The position numbers and the translations under genes are program-made. Positions 1,354 to 9,014 of a stretch of DNA of 36,080 nt are shown piece after piece. This DNA is from Clostridia bacterium (GTDB taxonomy: Bacteria; Bacillota; Clostridia; Oscillospirales; CAG-272). Within the stretch, counting starts at the first letter, position 1. Every line of letters starts with the position of its first letter. The stretch spans positions 1 to 36,080 of the forward strand of contig JAFURQ010000010.1 in NCBI GenBank assembly GCA_017471825.1, read 5' to 3'. Below the pieces are notes generated by a model that worked only from the letters and a program-made list of their open reading frames with translations, searched no databases and had not been told where the DNA came from.

Positions 1354-1957
1354 GGAGTCCCGTTGCGGCTCGGAGATATTTAATCACGTATTCGGGGTTA
1401 AGAAACGACGAGGCATCTGCGCTGAGGGTACAGCTTATGCGAAGGGTGCCGTTCGAGGCGACTGCGCTTGCGGAGCGGATAAGAGGCTTTATATCGACCT
1501 CGGCATCGCCCGATTTTGTCTTTTTCATAACCCGTGCCTCGGGTGCCGCGAGGGCGGTGTTGACTCGAGCGGCGAGCTCATCCGTTGCTCCGTCGGTGCT
1601 TACGGTTATGACGTATGAGAGCCATTTGAGGTCGGTGAGCTTTGTTTCGGGATAATATGCCTTCAGAACCACGAGCTCGTCGGTCATATTGCGATTGAGT
1701 GTCGCTACCGCCACATCAGGATCGATGCGTTCGCTGAGGCGGAGATCCATAAATTCAACGGTGCTTTCGGTGCCGATTGAAAGAGGTGCGGCGAAAACCA
1801 TTTTGGGCTTAGGATTGAAGCCCTCCGTGTACCAAAGCGGAAGCTTGGAGCGGACTATTATTTTTTGCATAGTTCTGACGAGGTCGAGGTGGGAGATGTA
1901 CTGAAGTGCGCCCACCTTCTTGAATTTTATACGGAGATTTATCGGGGTATTATTCAT
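1271..1957 (-). CDS. DUF2344 protein (TIGR03936), partner of the TIGR03960 radical SAM protein
   Basis: A 228-residue protein of the TIGR03936/DUF2344 family. The N-terminal LRIKFKKVGALQYISHLDLVR and FNPKPKMVFAAPLSIG segments are family hallmarks. It is usually found next to, or fused to, TIGR03960 B12-binding radical SAM proteins, as here; the substrate of the pair is unknown, and linkage elsewhere to ribosomal protein L21/L27 and RNase G genes suggests an RNA or translation role (inference). The ATG at 1957 is chosen because GGAGG lies eight bases upstream; an in-frame GTG at 1966 would sit inside that ribosome-binding site. It overlaps the upstream gene by eight bases. The 3' end overlaps the convergent DUF4363 gene by 83 bases. 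Confidence 0.88.
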   Translation of the reverse strand: MNNTPINLRIKFKKVGALQYISHLDLVRTMQKIIVRSKLPLWYTEGFNPKPKMVFAAPLSIGTESTVEFMDLRLSERIDPDVAVATLNRNMTDELVVLKAYYPETKLTDLKWLSYVITVSTDGATDELAARVNTALAAPEARVMKKTKSGDAEVDIKPLIRSASAVASNGTLRISCTLSADASSFLNPEYVIKYLRAATGLLTNPNLLAEGYTIQRIAAYKDDMSEFL

Positions 1958-3839
1958 TGTCCGCACCTCCGTTTTGGTCGCAGGCTCTGCACCAGCGGTT
2001 TTTGCCGCCGAGCTTATCCGCTCCGCAACCGTTGCAGTGCTCCGCGCAGGATGGGGTGGTTTTTTCGTTATACGCCCTTTCCCTCTCGCGAAGAAGATAT
2101 TTTTTCGTTACGCCGCAGTCGATGATATCCCACGGCAAAACCTCGTCAAGTCCGAAGCCGCGCGTGGTATAGAATCCGGTGTCAATGCCGTGGCGGGCAA
2201 ATATTTCCATCCATTTATCGTAGTCGAAATACTCCTCCCATGCATCGAACATAGCACCCTCCTCTACGGCTGTTGCTATTGCGGGTGCGAGGCGGCGGTC
2301 ACCGCGTGCAAATACGGCTTCGAGGAAGGAAACCTTTGCATCGTGGTAGGTATATCTGACTCTTTTATCGGTTATACAGCTTTTAAGATATTCCTGCTTT
2401 TCTATGAGGGTTTCATAGGAATCCTGCTTTTCCCATTGGAACGGAGTAAAGGGCTTGGGGACGAAGCAGGCGACGCTTATGGTAACGCCGACGCCGCGAG
2501 GGCGCTGATCCTTGGGGAGCTTGAAATACTGCCCTACGACGCGCGTAGCGAGCTCGGCAATTCCCTTTATATCCTCGAGCGTTTCGGTGGGGAGTCCGTC
2601 CATAAAGTAGAGCTTTACGTTGCTCTTTCCACCTCGGAAGGCTATGGCAACCGAGCGCATGAGGTCCTCCTCGGTTACGTTCTTATTTATAACGTCGCGA
2701 AGGCGCTGAGTGCCTGCCTCGGGGGCAAAGGTTATGCCGCCCGTGCGGACCGAGCTTACCTTTTTCATCAGCTCCTCAGAGAAGCTGTCAATACGAAGCG
2801 AGGGCAAGGAGAGGCTTATGTGCTCGTCATCAGTCCAGGATAGGAGCGAATCGGTGAGCTCACCAATCCTTGAATAATCGCTTATCGAAAGCGAGATAAG
2901 GGAGATTTCGTCATAGCCTGTGTTATCGTAGAGGCACTTTGCGGTGGCGTTAAGCACCTCGGGAGATTTCTCTCTGATGGGTCTATACACCATACCTGCC
3001 TGACAGAAGCGGCATCCGCGGATACAGCCGCGGTAGATTTCAAGAACTATTCTGTCGTGCACGGTTTCGATATAAGGCATAACGAGCTTTTCGGGATAGG
3101 ACACGGTATCGAGGTCGGCGATTATGCGCTTTTTAATTTTCCTCGGTACGTCGTCGTAGAGGGGCTTATACTCCTTTATAGTGCCGTCGTCGTTATAGCT
3201 GACGTCATAGAGTGAGGGGATATACACGCCCTCGATTCCTGCGGCGGCGCGAAGGAAGGCGGAGCGGGTATATGTTCCCTCCTCCTTCATTTTTATATAG
3301 AGGTGGCAAATCTCGAGCAGGACCTCCTCGCCCTCTCCGATATTGATGAGGTCGAAGAACTCGGCAATGGGCTCCGAATTGTAGACGCAGGGGCCGCCAC
3401 CGATTATAATGGGGGTATCCTCATCTCTGTCCTTCGCCCAGATGGGTATTCCCGCGAGGCGAAGCATTTGAAGCGCTGTGGTATAGCAGAGCTCGTACTG
3501 GAGCGAGAAGGCGACGAGGTCAAACTCGGAGAGCTCGTCACCGCTTTCCACGGCGGCAAGCGGAATGGAGTATTCCTCCATTTTTTCCTTCATATCCGTC
3601 CACGGAGCGTAAACGCGCTCGCACCAGACGTCCTTATCCTTGTTTATAACGTCGTACAGGATTCGGACGCCGAGGTTTGACATACCTATCTCATAGGTGT
3701 CGGGAAAGCAAAACGCGAAGCGGCATTTTACCGAATCCTTATCCTTCATTATTCTATTGTATTCGCCGCCGATATAGCGTCCAGGCTTTTGTATTGATTT
3801 CAGCACGGATGATATATTCGGTATTTCAGAAAGCTTCAT
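1950..3839 (-). CDS. TIGR03960 family B12-binding-domain radical SAM protein
   Basis: A 629-residue cytoplasmic iron-sulfur enzyme. The N-terminal part (about 35-240) resembles a cobalamin-binding Rossmann domain, with the typical FSLQYELCYTTALQML and IIIGGGPCVYNSEP segments. The radical SAM core follows, with the 4Fe-4S ligands at C272, C276 and C279 (GCIRGCRFCQAG). The C-terminus ends in a Cys-rich cluster (about 605-625: CAEHCNGCGADKL, then WCRACDQN) that could bind zinc or another cluster. Family length matches. It is followed by its usual partner DUF2344 with an eight-base overlap and lies 27 bases after the P-type-ATPase-like gene. The family is well defined, but the reaction is unknown; a modification of RNA or a ribosomal component is a guess from context. 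Confidence 0.92.
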   Translation of the reverse strand: MKLSEIPNISSVLKSIQKPGRYIGGEYNRIMKDKDSVKCRFAFCFPDTYEIGMSNLGVRILYDVINKDKDVWCERVYAPWTDMKEKMEEYSIPLAAVESGDELSEFDLVAFSLQYELCYTTALQMLRLAGIPIWAKDRDEDTPIIIGGGPCVYNSEPIAEFFDLINIGEGEEVLLEICHLYIKMKEEGTYTRSAFLRAAAGIEGVYIPSLYDVSYNDDGTIKEYKPLYDDVPRKIKKRIIADLDTVSYPEKLVMPYIETVHDRIVLEIYRGCIRGCRFCQAGMVYRPIREKSPEVLNATAKCLYDNTGYDEISLISLSISDYSRIGELTDSLLSWTDDEHISLSLPSLRIDSFSEELMKKVSSVRTGGITFAPEAGTQRLRDVINKNVTEEDLMRSVAIAFRGGKSNVKLYFMDGLPTETLEDIKGIAELATRVVGQYFKLPKDQRPRGVGVTISVACFVPKPFTPFQWEKQDSYETLIEKQEYLKSCITDKRVRYTYHDAKVSFLEAVFARGDRRLAPAIATAVEEGAMFDAWEEYFDYDKWMEIFARHGIDTGFYTTRGFGLDEVLPWDIIDCGVTKKYLLRERERAYNEKTTPSCAEHCNGCGADKLGGKNRWCRACDQNGGADNE

Positions 3840-3866: not shown

Positions 3867-6296
3867 TTACTGCTTATGCTCCGGAAGATTGAAGGTGCGT
3901 CGGCTCATAACCGCGAGTGCCACCGTCCAGCATATATGCCAGAGCGAGAGCGCAACCGTGGGAATTACGGTTATGCCGCTAAAGGCGAGGACGAGTGCAA
4001 GCACCGAGCCAAATGACATAGCAGCAAGCTCGATAGCCGCCATTTTCTTCTGGAAGCTTGTGTATTTTCTGGAAAGAAGGAGCATATTTATCACAGCTTC
4101 CTTACTCTTTGAGGTTACGATTCCTGCACTGACGCGCGAGTAGGGGGTGTCGTCCGATTTGGGCAGGGTTTGCTTTTTAAGAACTCTGATTTTATCGGCG
4201 CCTGCGGTGAGCGTGCACAGAAGCTCGTTATTTACGTTAGGGTCACGGGTGTACACGAGAGGAACTATACCCTCGTCCTCAAGCGAGGGCAGAAGCATAG
4301 TGAACTCCTCAGAGAAGGTGTAGCGGATATAGAATTTTGCATAGACCTCTCCGTTTTCTGCGGCGTACATAACCTTAGTGGAGAAAAGCGGTCTTTCCTG
4401 TGCGGGATCGTACGGCACGGTTATACCGTTGCGAACCATATATTCAAGACTGCCTGCTCTTACCTCATTGCCGTCGACCCTACCGGAGATTCCCTCCTCC
4501 TCGATATGTACTCTGTCGGCGGGGGGAGCGATGTGGTCGAGAGAATCGGCAAACAGGTTTTTAAGCGGGCCGCCAACAACCGAGAAGACGGATGCCATCT
4601 GGTGCATAGCCTTGGAGAGATTTTCGCTTTTGCCGTAAAGCATTATACGCTGAAGGGTTACATCCTCCTCGCCGAAAACCTCAGTATCGTCAAAGCCTAT
4701 AACGTCGACGCCCGAATAATCGTAGAGCGAGGTTTCGCCGATTATGGCGCCGCCGTCCTTTTCCGCCTGCTTTACAGCGTGGAAGAACGGGAGCTTATGC
4801 ACGAGAAGCGAGAAGGCGGGAAGCCCGAAGATAAATACTGCTGTGAAGGTGGATATTGCGGCAAAAATACCGCCGGGAATGAAATACGCCACGCATGCCG
4901 CTACAAAGCCGAGACCGAAGGTTGCGGCGAGAGTAACTATTACGTTACCCGAGCTTTCGGCGCATTTTCCGCTACGCTTAAAGAAATCCGCAATAAAAGA
5001 GGCGCGGAAGATGCGGGCGGTTTTTGATTTATAGCCCTCTACCTTGCCGTCGACGGCGAGGTTTTCCTCAGGGAGTGAGCGCGTGAGCTTTCTGTCAACG
5101 ATGCTCTTCTCCTCGGGGGTTGCTATCTTCTTAAAATTGGTGAAGTCCGCAAGCGTTTTATAGAGTGCGGCAGAGATTGCGCCGAGTGTGATGAGCGCAA
5201 AGAGCAGACCGAAGAGCGCGTATTCCGCAGGAGATGCTATGATTACAGCGGCATAATATCCGACGAGGACGATTGCCGCGGCAGGAATGAATAGCTCTGG
5301 AACCGCTCTGCCGACGAACAGACGGCGGAACGCGTATATAATTTCTGGCAAGGCGAGGACAAAGAGGCATATTACGAGCTGTCCGTCAAGAAGCGCCATA
5401 GCATACGGCAGACTTGAAATGCCGAGAAGCTGTGCGGCATCTACGCCAAAGAGAGAAAGATTTTCGAGCACGAGAAGCAAAACGGCTATTACTGCCGAGG
5501 CAACAAGGCGCACCTTAAGCGACATAACGGTGTCGAGAAATTTGTCCTTGAACGCTTCCCTTTGGGTATGCTCGGTATATTCGGTTTTCTTTTTTGTATT
5601 GGTATCGGTTTCGTCACCGACAGAGGTTATAGCCTCGAGGCGTGACACGGGGCCTGGCTTCTTCTCCTCAAGAGCGAGCGATTCTGCGGTGATGGGCGCC
5701 TCGGGTGCACCTTCCTCCTCCGCCTCAAACTCGAGGGTGACCTCCTCCTCTGCCTCGGCGGTTTCTTCCTCCGTGGCGGTGGTGAGCTCCTCTGCGGTCG
5801 GGAGTGTATCGTCCTCCTCGGTGGTATCGAATTTAAACACCGTGGAGCTGATATCGTATTCCTCGGGGGTCGGTGTGCCTACGGTTACAACGGTGGCACC
5901 GTCGAGGGCGTGCTCGGTATCCATTTCCGCCGTGGGATCAACCGACGAGGTGGGGTGAGGCTTGGGGCTCTCGCGCTTCGGGGGCTTTGCCTCCGTCTTA
6001 CGCGGCTCGTCGGGGCTTGCCATTCGGTAGCTTTCGCTCGCATCGGTAAAGCGAGGCAGATAAGTGGTATGCACGAGGGTGGTATCAATAGGCGCTGACT
6101 CGGTCCTATCCTGCTCATCCCGCGGCTCGCTTGCGGTATCCGAATAGCTTTCGGGGACGGTAAATTCAACCTTCGGGCTTTTGGGCGCCTCGGGAGCTCG
6201 GGCGGGCTTTGTGACGGGCTCGTCCTGCGGTGCTTGTGGGGCGATGCTTTCGTTTTCGTCCTCGAAGGTAAATTCAAGCTTTATATTATCATCCAA
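3867..6296 (-). CDS. Large membrane protein resembling a degenerate P-type (P1B) ATPase with an acidic N-terminal tail
   Basis: About 809 residues. Residues 1-245 are disordered, rich in Glu, Pro and Thr. Eight hydrophobic segments follow in P1B-ATPase order: four at about 262-378, two at 451-499, two at 752-797. Between the last pairs lies a region that aligns by eye to the ATPase P and N domains: VDVIGFDDTEVF (531-542) where functional pumps have FDKTGT, GISGRVDGNEVRAG (602-615) like the HMA-type nucleotide-binding segment, and YTRDPNVN (682-689) where TGDN is expected. The ion-site CPC motif is replaced by FGLPAF (490-495), and no TGE is seen in the short loop replacing the actuator domain. 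An active pump is therefore unlikely. The TTG start at 6296 has GGGAGG eight bases upstream and overlaps rlmB by eight bases. The function is unknown; the homology needs a profile search. Confidence 0.7.
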   Translation of the reverse strand: MDDNIKLEFTFEDENESIAPQAPQDEPVTKPARAPEAPKSPKVEFTVPESYSDTASEPRDEQDRTESAPIDTTLVHTTYLPRFTDASESYRMASPDEPRKTEAKPPKRESPKPHPTSSVDPTAEMDTEHALDGATVVTVGTPTPEEYDISSTVFKFDTTEEDDTLPTAEELTTATEEETAEAEEEVTLEFEAEEEGAPEAPITAESLALEEKKPGPVSRLEAITSVGDETDTNTKKKTEYTEHTQREAFKDKFLDTVMSLKVRLVASAVIAVLLLVLENLSLFGVDAAQLLGISSLPYAMALLDGQLVICLFVLALPEIIYAFRRLFVGRAVPELFIPAAAIVLVGYYAAVIIASPAEYALFGLLFALITLGAISAALYKTLADFTNFKKIATPEEKSIVDRKLTRSLPEENLAVDGKVEGYKSKTARIFRASFIADFFKRSGKCAESSGNVIVTLAATFGLGFVAACVAYFIPGGIFAAISTFTAVFIFGLPAFSLLVHKLPFFHAVKQAEKDGGAIIGETSLYDYSGVDVIGFDDTEVFGEEDVTLQRIMLYGKSENLSKAMHQMASVFSVVGGPLKNLFADSLDHIAPPADRVHIEEEGISGRVDGNEVRAGSLEYMVRNGITVPYDPAQERPLFSTKVMYAAENGEVYAKFYIRYTFSEEFTMLLPSLEDEGIVPLVYTRDPNVNNELLCTLTAGADKIRVLKKQTLPKSDDTPYSRVSAGIVTSKSKEAVINMLLLSRKYTSFQKKMAAIELAAMSFGSVLALVLAFSGITVIPTVALSLWHICWTVALAVMSRRTFNLPEHKQ

Positions 6297-7134
6297 TGTC
6301 TGCACCTCCCAAATCTCTTTGTCTTGCCACCTCGGCAAAAATTATAGCCGCGGCACAGGAAACGTTCATTGAGTTAACCCTGCCGTGAAGCTTGATTGAT
6401 ACGGTGAAATCGCATTTTTCCTTAACAAGACGGGAAATTCCAAAGCCCTCACTGCCGAGGACCAACGCCATGCTTCCCGTCAGGTCGGTTTTCACGTAAT
6501 CGGAGCCGCCCATATCTGCGGCGTATATCCACAGACCGCGCTCCTTCAACTCGTCTATTGTAGTGGCGATATTCGTCACTCTCGCAACCCTCACGTATTC
6601 GGTTGCGCCTGCCGCCGCCTTTGCAACGGTGGGGGTAAGTCCTACCGCGCGGCGCTTGGGTATGATGACGCCGTGGGCGCCAAGGCACTCCGCACTTCTG
6701 ATAATAGCGCCGAGGTTATGTGGATCCTCAACTCCGTCGAGAATTATGACGAAGGGCTTTTCTCCGCGCTCGTCGGCGTAGGCAAGAATATCGTCAACCG
6801 TGGAGTAGTTGTGCTCTGCCGCGAGGGCGACGATGCCCTGATGGCGAGTGCCGCCCGATATTGCATCGAGCTTTGATTTATCTACCTCTACAACGGGGAT
6901 TTTCTTTTCTATTGCCAAGGCAACGAGAAGCTTTATAGAGCCCTCGCGGTCGCCCGAGCTTACGTATATTTTATCGACGTCACGGTCGCCCGAAAGAAGC
7001 TCACGGACGGCGTTTCTGCCGCTTACCACGCAGTTGTTTTCCTCTGCCTCGGTGTGAGTCTCCCTTTTATCCTTATGAAAATCGCGGCGCGCGTTTTTAT
7101 TTTTATTATTTTTATATCCGAATTTCTTTTCCAT
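6289..7134 (-). CDS. rlmB: RlmB/TrmH family 23S rRNA (guanosine-2'-O-)methyltransferase
   Basis: SPOUT-class SAM-dependent 2'-O-methyltransferase of 281 residues. After a Lys/Asn-rich N-terminal tail comes the substrate-binding domain (CVVSGRNAVRELL, about 35-110). The knotted catalytic domain has the three motifs: EDPHNLGAIIRSAECLGAHG, ALVLGSEGFGISRLV and VSIKLHGRVNSMNVSCAAAI. The bacterial prototype methylates G2251 of 23S rRNA; TrmH-group paralogues such as YacO make exact specificity uncertain, and the gene does not lie after cysS-mrnC, the usual YacO setting. The ATG at 7134 has GGAG six bases upstream, so six upstream codons are excluded. It heads a four-gene operon driven by the promoter at 7193-7221. 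Confidence 0.9.
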   Translation of the reverse strand: MEKKFGYKNNKNKNARRDFHKDKRETHTEAEENNCVVSGRNAVRELLSGDRDVDKIYVSSGDREGSIKLLVALAIEKKIPVVEVDKSKLDAISGGTRHQGIVALAAEHNYSTVDDILAYADERGEKPFVIILDGVEDPHNLGAIIRSAECLGAHGVIIPKRRAVGLTPTVAKAAAGATEYVRVARVTNIATTIDELKERGLWIYAADMGGSDYVKTDLTGSMALVLGSEGFGISRLVKEKCDFTVSIKLHGRVNSMNVSCAAAIIFAEVARQRDLGGADIG

Positions 7135-7192
7135 CGGTAACTCCAGACACAATAAAGTTAAAAAGGCTATAAAAACCCATTTTTACCTTTAC

Positions 7193-7221
7193 ATTATACC
7201 ACACTTTTTCACGTTTGTACA
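7193..7221 (-). promoter_or_regulatory. Promoter of the rlmB operon
   Basis: On the minus strand TGTACA (7221-7216), a 17-base spacer and a perfect TATAAT (7198-7193) lie about 60 bases before the rlmB start, in an A+T-rich gap and just after the terminator of the preceding gene. Confidence 0.7.
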
Positions 7222-7340: not shown

Positions 7341-7622
7341 TTACTCCTGTGCTGCTTTTTTAGCTGCGAAGCACTCGCTGCAATAAACAGCCTTACCCTC
7401 GGTGGGCTTGAAGGGGACCTGGCAGTCCTTACCGCATTCTACGCAAACGGCTGCAAACATTTCTCTTGCGCCCTTTACTGCGTTCTTTCTTGCGATACGG
7501 CATTCCTTACATCTGGAGGGCTCGTTTTCAAAGCCTCTGGATGCGTAGAATTCCTGCTCACCTGCGGTGAACACGAAATCATTGCCACAATCTTTGCACT
7601 TCAATGTCTTGTCCTGGTACAT
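7341..7622 (-). CDS. Small zinc-ribbon protein (zf-trcl/CxxC type)
   Basis: A 93-residue protein with two zinc-ribbon-like units. The first (residues 1-45) has C9/C12 (CKDCGNDFVFTAGEQEFY) and a second pair in SRCKECR. The second has CVECGKDCQVPFKPTEGKAVYCSECF near the C-terminus, a pattern widespread in small Clostridia and Chloroflexi proteins of unknown function. The ATG at 7622 has a purine-rich GAGGAAAGAAGA upstream, so the six codons before it are left out. It is followed by a strong terminator and preceded by a tRNA-like element in its leader. Whether it binds nucleic acid or protein cannot be told. Confidence 0.82.
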   Translation of the reverse strand: MYQDKTLKCKDCGNDFVFTAGEQEFYASRGFENEPSRCKECRIARKNAVKGAREMFAAVCVECGKDCQVPFKPTEGKAVYCSECFAAKKAAQE

Positions 7623-7660
7623 GGTTTCTTCTTTCCTCACTTAAAATAGGTTAAAAATTT

Positions 7661-7723
7661 TGCCCTAGACGGATTCCAACCGACGCCTTTGTAAACAACG
7701 CTCTCCCTTAAGCTATACGGGCA
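7661..7723 (-). pseudogene. tRNA-like element, possibly a decayed tRNA-Val(UAC)
   Basis: On the minus strand this 63-base stretch reads like a shrunken tRNA. It opens with TGCCC and closes with GGGCA, giving five acceptor pairs. It has a D-arm-like GTATAGCTT...GAGCG, a TTTACAA anticodon-loop-like heptamer that would present UAC, and a T arm CGG-TTGGAAT-CCG. It lacks about ten bases compared with a normal tRNA: the D loop is short, the variable loop is gone, the anticodon stem pairs poorly, the lower acceptor pairs are lost, the T loop has TTG for TTC, and no CCA follows. It sits between the sigma factor stop and the zinc-ribbon gene start. A structured leader RNA is the main alternative. Confidence 0.4.
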
Positions 7724-7738
7724 TATTGACGAAATGAA

Positions 7739-8305
7739 TTAAAAGTCGGAAAACGTATCGCTGTTTTCACGCAGGCGCTTTAGCATACGCGCCTTTGCAT
7801 TGTCGATCGACTTGGGCGATTTTGACAGCTCGCGCGCCATTTCCGCGGTGGTATAGCCGCGAAGATAAAGACGCAAAACAGAATATTCGTAATCCGAAAG
7901 GATTTGTCGGGCGGCGCGAAGAGCACGGCGCAGGCGCTCACGGGAAACGATTACACTTTCGATTCCGTCGCTCCTGCCGAGTGTTTCCACATCACGCAAG
8001 TCTACCACACCGTCGCGCGCTGCCTTCCCCATTATATCGTAAAGATGGTTGCGGACGCAGGTACGTGCGTAGAGCCCAAAGGTTACCGTGGCAGAGCCGA
8101 TGTCGTATGTAAGAGTTGCGCGATACAGGGCAAAGGTCGCCTCGGAAAAAGCCTCCTCCGAGCTAATCATCGGAGAATTAAAGCGGGATATTACACCGTG
8201 AAGCATAGGGGTATAGCGCCTTACGATTTCGGCAAATGCGAGATCGTCATTCGAACGTGCCATAAGGATCAACGTCGAAATTTCCATATTACAATGTGCG
8301 CTCAT
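7739..8305 (-). CDS. RNA polymerase sigma-70 family factor, SigH-like, lacking regions 1 and 3
   Basis: A 188-residue stand-alone sigma factor. Region 2 covers about residues 10-95 (AFAEIVRRYTPMLHGVI and EAFSEATFALYRATLTYD, then TFGLYARTCVRNHLYDIM). Region 4 covers about 130-182 (LSDYEYSVLRLYLRGYT, then a helix-turn-helix TTAEMARELSKSPKSIDNAKARM). Length and the GLYARTCVRNHLYD pattern place it near the SigH/ECF-like group of Clostridia, but it is clearly diverged from classical SigH, so sporulation control is only a possibility. Its own promoter has near-perfect sigma-A boxes. No anti-sigma gene is adjacent; DUF4364 and a lipoprotein lie upstream. Confidence 0.83.
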   Translation of the reverse strand: MSAHCNMEISTLILMARSNDDLAFAEIVRRYTPMLHGVISRFNSPMISSEEAFSEATFALYRATLTYDIGSATVTFGLYARTCVRNHLYDIMGKAARDGVVDLRDVETLGRSDGIESVIVSRERLRRALRAARQILSDYEYSVLRLYLRGYTTAEMARELSKSPKSIDNAKARMLKRLRENSDTFSDF

Positions 8306-8330
8306 TGATTGCCCGCCTTTGAATAAATTT

Positions 8331-8360
8331 ATTATAAATCTTTTAGAGCAACATTGTCAA
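8331..8360 (-). promoter_or_regulatory. Promoter of the sigma factor gene
   Basis: On the minus strand a perfect TTGACA (8360-8355) and a perfect TATAAT (8336-8331) are separated by 18 bases, about 25 bases before the start codon. Confidence 0.8.
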
Positions 8361-8462
8361 TAGCTTTTTTCAAAAAAATTTACATTTTTCTTTATAATTA
8401 TACAATTATTGCTCAAACCTGCAACACTTTATTAGTGAATATTACCAAAAAAATATTTTTTC

Positions 8463-9014
8463 TCAGGAAATATATTCGAGTCTTCCGGTCGCGGAAAAGA
8501 GTATTCCTCTGTATACCGCCTCCGGACGAGTTTCGAAATTCTGACGTATTTTCTCCGCCTCGGAGAGAGAGGAAACAACGAGTGATGCCTCGAGAAGCTG
8601 ACCCGACGTATCCTGAAGGGAGAGCGTTACCTTGTATCTCGAGCCCTCCACCTCTGTAACGGCGGTTTTGGTCGTTGCGCCGCTTTTCGCGAGTGAGAGG
8701 TGCTTCATAGCGCTCTTAAGGCTCTTCTCTCTGAAATCCTCGTCCAGAGCGTCGAAGAGCTCCTTCGCCACCATTCTGCCACTGTCGGAGATCATATAGT
8801 AGGCTTCGCCGTCGACCTCGTCGAACCAGACGTGACCCGAATCCGAAAGCTCGCCAAGGCATTCGTCATAGTCGATTATTATTTCATCGGTGTTTTCCGA
8901 AACTATATTGATAAGCGTTGTACGGTCAACGGGATAGCGAATATATTCAAGCAAAAAAAGGAGAAAAACCTTTATATCCGTAACCGTACGCAAGGTAAAT
9001 TTCTTTTTCTTCAT
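8463..9014 (-). CDS. DUF4364 family protein, winged-helix-like regulator
   Basis: A 183-residue cytoplasmic protein of the DUF4364 family found in Clostridia. The first about 80 residues resemble a winged helix (DIKVFLLFLLEYIRYPVDRTTLINIV, then CLGELSDSGHVWF and YMISDSGRMVAKEL). The remainder is a mixed alpha/beta domain ending in YRGILFSATGRLEYIS. A role as transcription regulator is inferred from the fold-like pattern; no target is known. The start ATG is preceded by GGCAGGG. The gene lies between an orphan binding lipoprotein and the sigma factor, all on one strand, but a terminator and a separate promoter flank it. Confidence 0.8.
   Translation of the reverse strand: MKKKKFTLRTVTDIKVFLLFLLEYIRYPVDRTTLINIVSENTDEIIIDYDECLGELSDSGHVWFDEVDGEAYYMISDSGRMVAKELFDALDEDFREKSLKSAMKHLSLAKSGATTKTAVTEVEGSRYKVTLSLQDTSGQLLEASLVVSSLSEAEKIRQNFETRPEAVYRGILFSATGRLEYIS

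Follow-up and report, generated by a model that had tools for sequence, protein, structure and literature searches.

An order-wide clostridial protein family that descends from P1B-type ATPases and has probably lost the pumping cycle

Comparison with its relatives leads us to infer strongly that the product of a gene from a Clostridia bacterium (GenBank assembly GCA_017471825.1), whose core descends from the P1B-type ATPases, has lost the capacity to pump. The gene, labelled X here as a pseudo-P1B-ATPase gene, lies on the minus strand at positions 3867–6296 of the window, the 36,080-nt stretch of contig JAFURQ010000010.1 that was analysed, and belongs to a family found across one order of gut bacteria. 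Members of the P-type ATPase superfamily are usually regarded as pumps or flippases. Because the parts that serve pumping have been lost, X has probably been reused for another job, for example that of a membrane scaffold or sensor, and we lean modestly towards the explanation that it is a P1B-derived pseudo-ATPase kept in such a role. We speak of a pseudo-ATPase in that the X family combines common descent with a family-wide catalytic loss under selection.

The open reading frame called by the gene-finding tool runs from 6338 to 3867 on the minus strand and is intact over 823 codons (823 aa); residue numbers refer to this frame, with residue 1 at base 6338. A TTG codon at 6296–6294 was taken as the likely start because GGGAGGTG, read from the sequence as a likely ribosome-binding site, precedes it at 6310–6303 on the same strand. 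From this start X comprises 809 codons plus a stop (3869–3867), which matches the coordinates 3867–6296 assigned to the gene in a sequence-only reading of this DNA. That reading had also described eight membrane segments and an acidic tail, and both are seen. Hydropathy averaged over 81 X sequences fits eight helices in P1B order (MA MB M1 M2, M3 M4, M5 M6), with the last two merged, and the tail, recognized by its composition, is an N-terminal, acidic, low-complexity segment (5556–6296, minus strand), with 25% D+E and 10% K+R in residues 1–261.

The likeness of the X core to P1B ATPases is far above chance and argues for common descent. With single sequences, TIGR01525 aligned to X with 22.2 bits (E 5.5e-5) and so did not reach its curated cut-off of 346.25; phmmer against the PDB gave no match; and a Pfam search reached no family, its one sub-threshold match, EVI2A, being taken as chance. 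TIGR01525 matched 32 of 42 X relatives (E up to 0.1), and Pfam P-type or HAD models were touched by only one or two of the 42, at E >0.02. A profile of 42 X sequences matched Legionella CopA (PDB 3rfu) with E 1.2e-15, and an order-wide profile of 48 sequences did so with E 5.2e-38, the other Cu+-ATPases ranking next and ZntA and a Cd-ATPase being matched near 1e-11. The match covers CopA residues 77–216, which hold the first four helices, and 335–611, which run from M3 to within the P domain; the X profile leaves the intervening actuator region unmatched. The comparison with P1B ATPases that the sequence-only reading had proposed was run with sequence profiles: hhalign of the X profile against 36 complete P1B ATPases gave a probability of 100 and E 6.2e-43 over 559 aligned columns, which bears out the homology suggested there by eye. 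In a tree of 65 sequences, all 24 X sequences grouped as one clade (support 1.0), set apart by a long branch next to the P1B ATPases as a whole, the placement of this clade relative to P1B not being settled by that tree.

Profile alignments, family columns and hydropathy allow the parts of X, all on the minus strand, to be placed on the P1B plan. The first four membrane helices (5169–5507, residues 278–390) are the counterparts of MA, MB, M1 and M2, as indicated by hydropathy and by alignment A2, 9–145 against CopA 77–216. They are followed, at the place of the actuator domain, by a short cytoplasmic loop of ~78 residues (4935–5168) without a TGE motif, the absence of which from the window protein had been correctly noted. 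Helices five and six (M3 and M4; 4800–4934, residues 469–513) carry the counterpart of the CPC membrane site. This site had been read as GLP, and GLP is present at residues 505–507, but the profile alignment sets L-P-A, residues 506–508, on the CPC columns. FDDTEVF (4674–4694, residues 549–555) stands at the place of FDKTGTL, GGPL (4563–4574, residues 589–592) at that of the N-domain EHPL with the ATP-pocket His, and TRDPN (4236–4250, residues 697–701) at that of TGDN, with no GDGxND counterpart afterwards. Between the last two lies GISGRVDGNEVRAG (4452–4493, residues 616–629), an N-domain segment like GxGVxAxVDGxxVxVGN, and the last two membrane helices (M5 and M6) occupy 3906–4040 (residues 767–811). 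FDDTEV (549–554), TRDP (697–700) and GISGRVDGNEVRAG thus stand at the positions stated for them beforehand.

The loss of catalytic motifs proposed from the single sequence extends across the family. None of 81 members has DKTGT at the aligned columns, a CPC-like triplet at the M4 columns or HP (of SEHPL) at the N-domain columns, where 48 have GP; TGD occurs at its aligned columns in one member, as TGDS; and in the profile–profile alignment X has a gap where the P1B template carries its GDGIND block. Counted at any place in the 81 cores, such strings are scattered (TGE 10, TGD 10, HP[LIMV] 5, [CST]P[CHS] 12, GDGxxD 2). The suggestion that the phosphorylatable Asp might survive did not hold: the catalytic Asp column (D550 in the window) is D in 36 of 81 members and otherwise mostly S, E, T, R, N, K or A, with R in the nearest relative, L032. 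The column on the Lys of DKTGT is D in 64 of 81 relatives, and DDTEV itself is not a conserved string, the relatives following roughly the pattern D-x-[DE]-h-F-P. Because the acceptor, the dephosphorylation motif, the Mg block, the ATP-pocket His and the metal site have been lost together, a pumping cycle is very unlikely, a conclusion that draws on established P-type enzymology, and we infer that X cannot be phosphorylated and does not pump. Two ordinary P1B ATPases above the family cut-off, both with DKTGT, TGE and GDGxND, are encoded in the same genome.

In the genomes sampled, full-length X matches fall within a single order, which we take to be the Oscillospirales of GTDB. In the window's own family, 59 of 59 genomes gave a match to a single-sequence query (E up to 1e-3), and across the order 228 of 245 sampled genomes, many of them incomplete assemblies, gave one match each (E up to 1e-45), among them 179 of the 184 of high quality. 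A sample of 245 genomes from the class included nine from the order with full-length matches (E 9e-95 or better); outside the order it held no full-length match, the best being partial (columns 199–479, E 2.4e-43), and all 21 matches from other orders that were read whole carry DKTGT, TGE, TGD, GDGxND, CPC and HP. Similarly, three of 299 genomes in a phylum sample passed E 1e-45, all three within the order, and no full-length match was found outside it. The nearest relative, L032, comes from a 'Clostridia bacterium' goat-colon assembly. In Vescimonas fastidiosa (Oscillospiraceae at NCBI), X is WP_212820792.1, which lies next to rlmB, is annotated 'hypothetical protein' and matches the profile with E 6e-94.

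X is under purifying selection: dN/dS was 0.025–0.322 in ten measurable pairs of eleven, the pair of the window and L032 being left out with synonymous sites saturated, and 0.025–0.153 in the six pairs with an identity of at least 87%. These values and the occurrence in 228 of 245 order genomes agree with the earlier view that the reading frame is maintained. X nonetheless evolves faster than RlmB, the median identity to the window being 25% for X (77 of 80 cores with a blastp match) and 52% for RlmB (80 of 80). The X frames of two relatives (G021:C4 and G079:C38) contain one in-frame TGA each, and that of a third (L113) is split over two frames.

The one constant companion of X is rlmB (6289–7152, minus strand; TIGR00186 above cut-off), the gene for the 23S rRNA G2251 2'-O-methyltransferase, whose stop codon (6291–6289) lies within an 8-nt overlap with the start of X. 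Gene order was compared in a family set of 41 loci (40 from 58 other genomes of the family, plus L032) and in a wider set of 39 loci that were hand-picked, not drawn at random, to represent 23 additional families of the order (one of the 40 regions taken being a duplicate); together these cover 24 of 26 families, the other two being represented by one incomplete genome each with no X match. In all 41 and all 39 loci rlmB is the same-strand upstream neighbour of X, and two further records (L295 and L296) also place it beside X, for a total of 82 loci, so that the question raised by the sequence-only reading, whether homologues all follow rlmB, has a uniform answer. In 72 of 80 loci the longest X frame lies within 87 nt of the rlmB stop, overlaps included; the widest spacing (1106) is at L124, whose X has an in-frame TGA. 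Downstream of X in the window lies a TIGR03960 radical SAM gene (1950–3839, minus strand; NCBIfam match), which is found there in 27 of the 41 family-set loci, some of which end too early to judge, and in none of the 39 from other families. Because the other neighbours vary, the conserved unit is rlmB-X. A consensus scan of the minus strand found no terminator-like site between the two genes and a promoter-like site upstream of rlmB at 7221–7193, a pattern that fits, without proving, a shared transcript. Upstream of rlmB, the window encodes a treble-clef zinc-finger protein, a sigma-70-like factor and a DUF4364 protein (7341–9014), and proteins like these precede rlmB in several other loci.

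Seventeen genomes of the order gave no X match. Three of them have a clear rlmB (G084, G062 and G289; E 1e-64 or better), but in each the contig stops within ~450 nt after it, and two show an apparent X start; because these three cases sit at contig ends, no genome was seen that has rlmB and a complete downstream stretch without X. In a fourth, G285, the rlmB match is doubtful (33% identity, E 2e-33). Neither gene was seen in G118, G144, G157 or G185, all at least 95% complete, which may reflect loss of both genes or a missing contig. A role in defence was considered and gained no PADLOC match. Carriage on a mobile element was likewise set aside: a single-sequence tblastn returned one plasmid record, an 861-kb Vescimonas replicon, and one phage record, a faecal scaffold that is unverified, each carrying rlmB-X. 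The latter, MT835508.1 (L296), is labelled 'Bacteriophage sp.', but because rlmB adjoins X in it, that part at least looks like bacterial chromosome.

The N-terminal tail is acidic throughout the family and in most members carries a short motif. Tails were long enough for analysis in 77 of 81 members, with a median length of 306, 25% acidic and 11% basic residues, some of them starting too early because longest frames were used. A 12-column motif model, [DE]hSh[DE][DE][IL]Lxx[LYF], scores above 4 in 71 of the 77, with a log-likelihood of 504 against 181–195 for five shuffled sets (run with fewer starts). Six tails, those of the window protein and of L032 included, have scores below zero, and the window protein thus does not carry the motif. 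At the DNA level, the pattern [FY]S[LIV][DE][DE]I[LM]xE was matched 13 times, in 11 of 25 genomes, against one match for the reversed control. Nine of the 13 are X by position, and the other four lie on a signal peptidase II tail and an ABC-2 permease N-tail (both identified by Pfam), EF-Ts and MurC (both read by eye). The signal peptidase II (L205, G151:C5) has a long disordered C-tail ending in EYSLEDILAEFRDI, and the ABC-2 permease (L213, G161:C1) starts with MSDKFSIDDILAEIG, each showing the same motif as X tails; they belong to two other genomes of the order. Run across the order, the pattern gave 98 matches in 84 of 295 genomes and 13 for the reversed control. Among 40 matched places that were read, chosen by skipping EF-Ts-like matches, 12 match the X profile (one weakly) and another two seem to be pieces of X cut off where the contig ends; read by eye, the remaining 26 include no disordered tail of an unrelated membrane protein. 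We therefore rejected the motif as a general tag, its reuse on other proteins being rare, and because of this rarity a shared partner for the motif-bearing proteins is unproven. RlmB was also considered as a charge partner for the tail and set aside: the 73 that could be parsed among 80 RlmB proteins of related loci have a median net charge of 0, and 20 of them reach +4 or more. In the window itself RlmB has a mildly basic N-terminal extension, and in L032 this carries +5.

Several observations weigh against the scaffold or sensor explanation, namely that the tail motif is absent from the window protein and from L032, that RlmB shows no general charge match to the tail, that the adjacency to rlmB could be an inherited gene order with no functional tie, and that conserved residues of the head (D699, D551, 553 and G629) leave room for binding or chemistry. 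The most conserved residues of X are indeed mostly in the cytoplasmic head; those kept include G629 (80/81), Y673 and D699 (78/81 each), F555 (74/81) and W804 (73/81). Because D699, G629 and a D/E-rich strand end (D551 in 64/81, D or E at 553 in 63/81) are retained, some binding or chemistry in the head is possible. With T or S at 697 (68/81), the D551, 553 and D699 columns resemble HAD motifs I and II, and the head might be another enzyme, such as a HAD-like phosphatase or phosphotransferase, that relies on D699 and on D551/D553, which would form a DxD pattern under a one-residue shift of the alignment. We regard this as quite improbable, since X has nothing in place of the Mg-binding block of motif IV, 17 of 81 members lack D551, and gapless profile alignments set the conserved Asp one residue past the nucleophile.

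A protein that does not pump could also act along the membrane path, as a gated channel, a passive carrier or a lipid-binding protein that uses the P1B pocket, a kind of role that one structural study proposes for human TMEM94. The whole eight-helix core is retained, the helix-breaking M4 prolines P507 and P517 are kept in 69 of 81 members each, and passages of a study of human TMEM94 describe lipid held at a similar M4 element in a protein without TGES (PMC12134183). This possibility seems to us unlikely, if well short of negligible, given that no polar or metal-binding residue is conserved at the CPC columns, that conservation is strongest mostly in the cytoplasmic head, and that the tail is left unexplained. 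That X is an active pump with very unusual motifs would accord with its retained fold and N-domain segment, but is hard to reconcile with the joint absence of acceptor, dephosphorylation motif, Mg block, ATP-pocket His and metal site, and with the ordinary P1B pumps of its own genome; we consider it very improbable. Least credible of all is a sequence error or decaying pseudogene. Nothing in the window speaks for it, the interrupted frames of G021, G079 and L113 being the evidence on that side, and the same state of X in 228 of 245 order genomes, with low dN/dS, excludes the local sequence error that had been named as an alternative.

Under the explanation that we prefer, a pseudo-ATPase kept as a membrane scaffold or sensor, X would go back to a P1B-type ATPase whose pumping cycle was lost during the early evolution of a single clostridial order and which has since been retained in single copy. 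The eight-helix P1B membrane part forms the core of the protein and would probably anchor a complex in the membrane; the P/N head, of P1B descent, lacks a Mg-binding block and a conserved phospho-acceptor; and the actuator domain has been cut down to a short loop. The acidic N-tail, with its docking-like motif in most relatives, would probably reach into the cytoplasm and hold a partner there, and a ligand bound by the remnant head or within the membrane pocket may set the state of the protein. Co-production with RlmB could, as a guess, provide a link to ribosome maturation or growth state. A bolder version, which we put forward only tentatively, would make X an order-defining, single-copy membrane hub, that is, a ligand-sensing anchor whose acidic tail bears a short docking helix that brings in cytoplasmic machinery, coordinated with ribosome maturation by way of co-expression with RlmB. 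If this were true, the motif on the signal peptidase II and ABC-2 permease tails would point to a shared envelope partner.

The closest known relatives of X are the P1B Cu+-ATPases such as CopA, including that of Legionella (PDB 3rfu), with which it shares full-length profile homology, the eight-helix plan, the P/N head and the M4 prolines. Unlike CopA, X has no conserved phospho-Asp, TGE, GDGxND, CPC or HP, has TGD[N] once, as TGDS, shows no visible HMA domain, and has a long acidic N-tail and a loop in place of the actuator domain. A 643-aa P1B-like protein from another genome of the order, L191 (G227:C13:79626-83198), has SKTGI for DKTGT and no GDGxND or CPC; its match to the X profile is weak and partial (E 2e-14), it was not observed next to rlmB, and it appears to be the product of an independent and less advanced degeneration of a P1B pump. 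Human TMEM94 (ERMA), likened to X by description and not by sequence, is a P-type architecture without TGES that keeps the M4 proline element; as described in passages of one cryo-EM study, it has P-type-like domains, showed no Post-Albers states and probably undergoes no Post-Albers cycle (PMC12134183). Its status as a pump is disputed, a later paper holding it to be a Mg2+ ATPase (PMC13322241). In contrast to X, TMEM94 has ten helices, belongs to another P-type group and keeps an A-like domain.

Within an open-licence library, covered by phrase searches and at the level of titles and abstracts, we found no bacterial pseudo-ATPase or inactive ATPase of the P type. The X family bears on the dispute over TMEM94, that is, on whether P-type-like proteins without the motifs can still transport. 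It also gives an unnamed protein a testable identity, and it would represent a second use of the P-type ATPase fold in bacteria.
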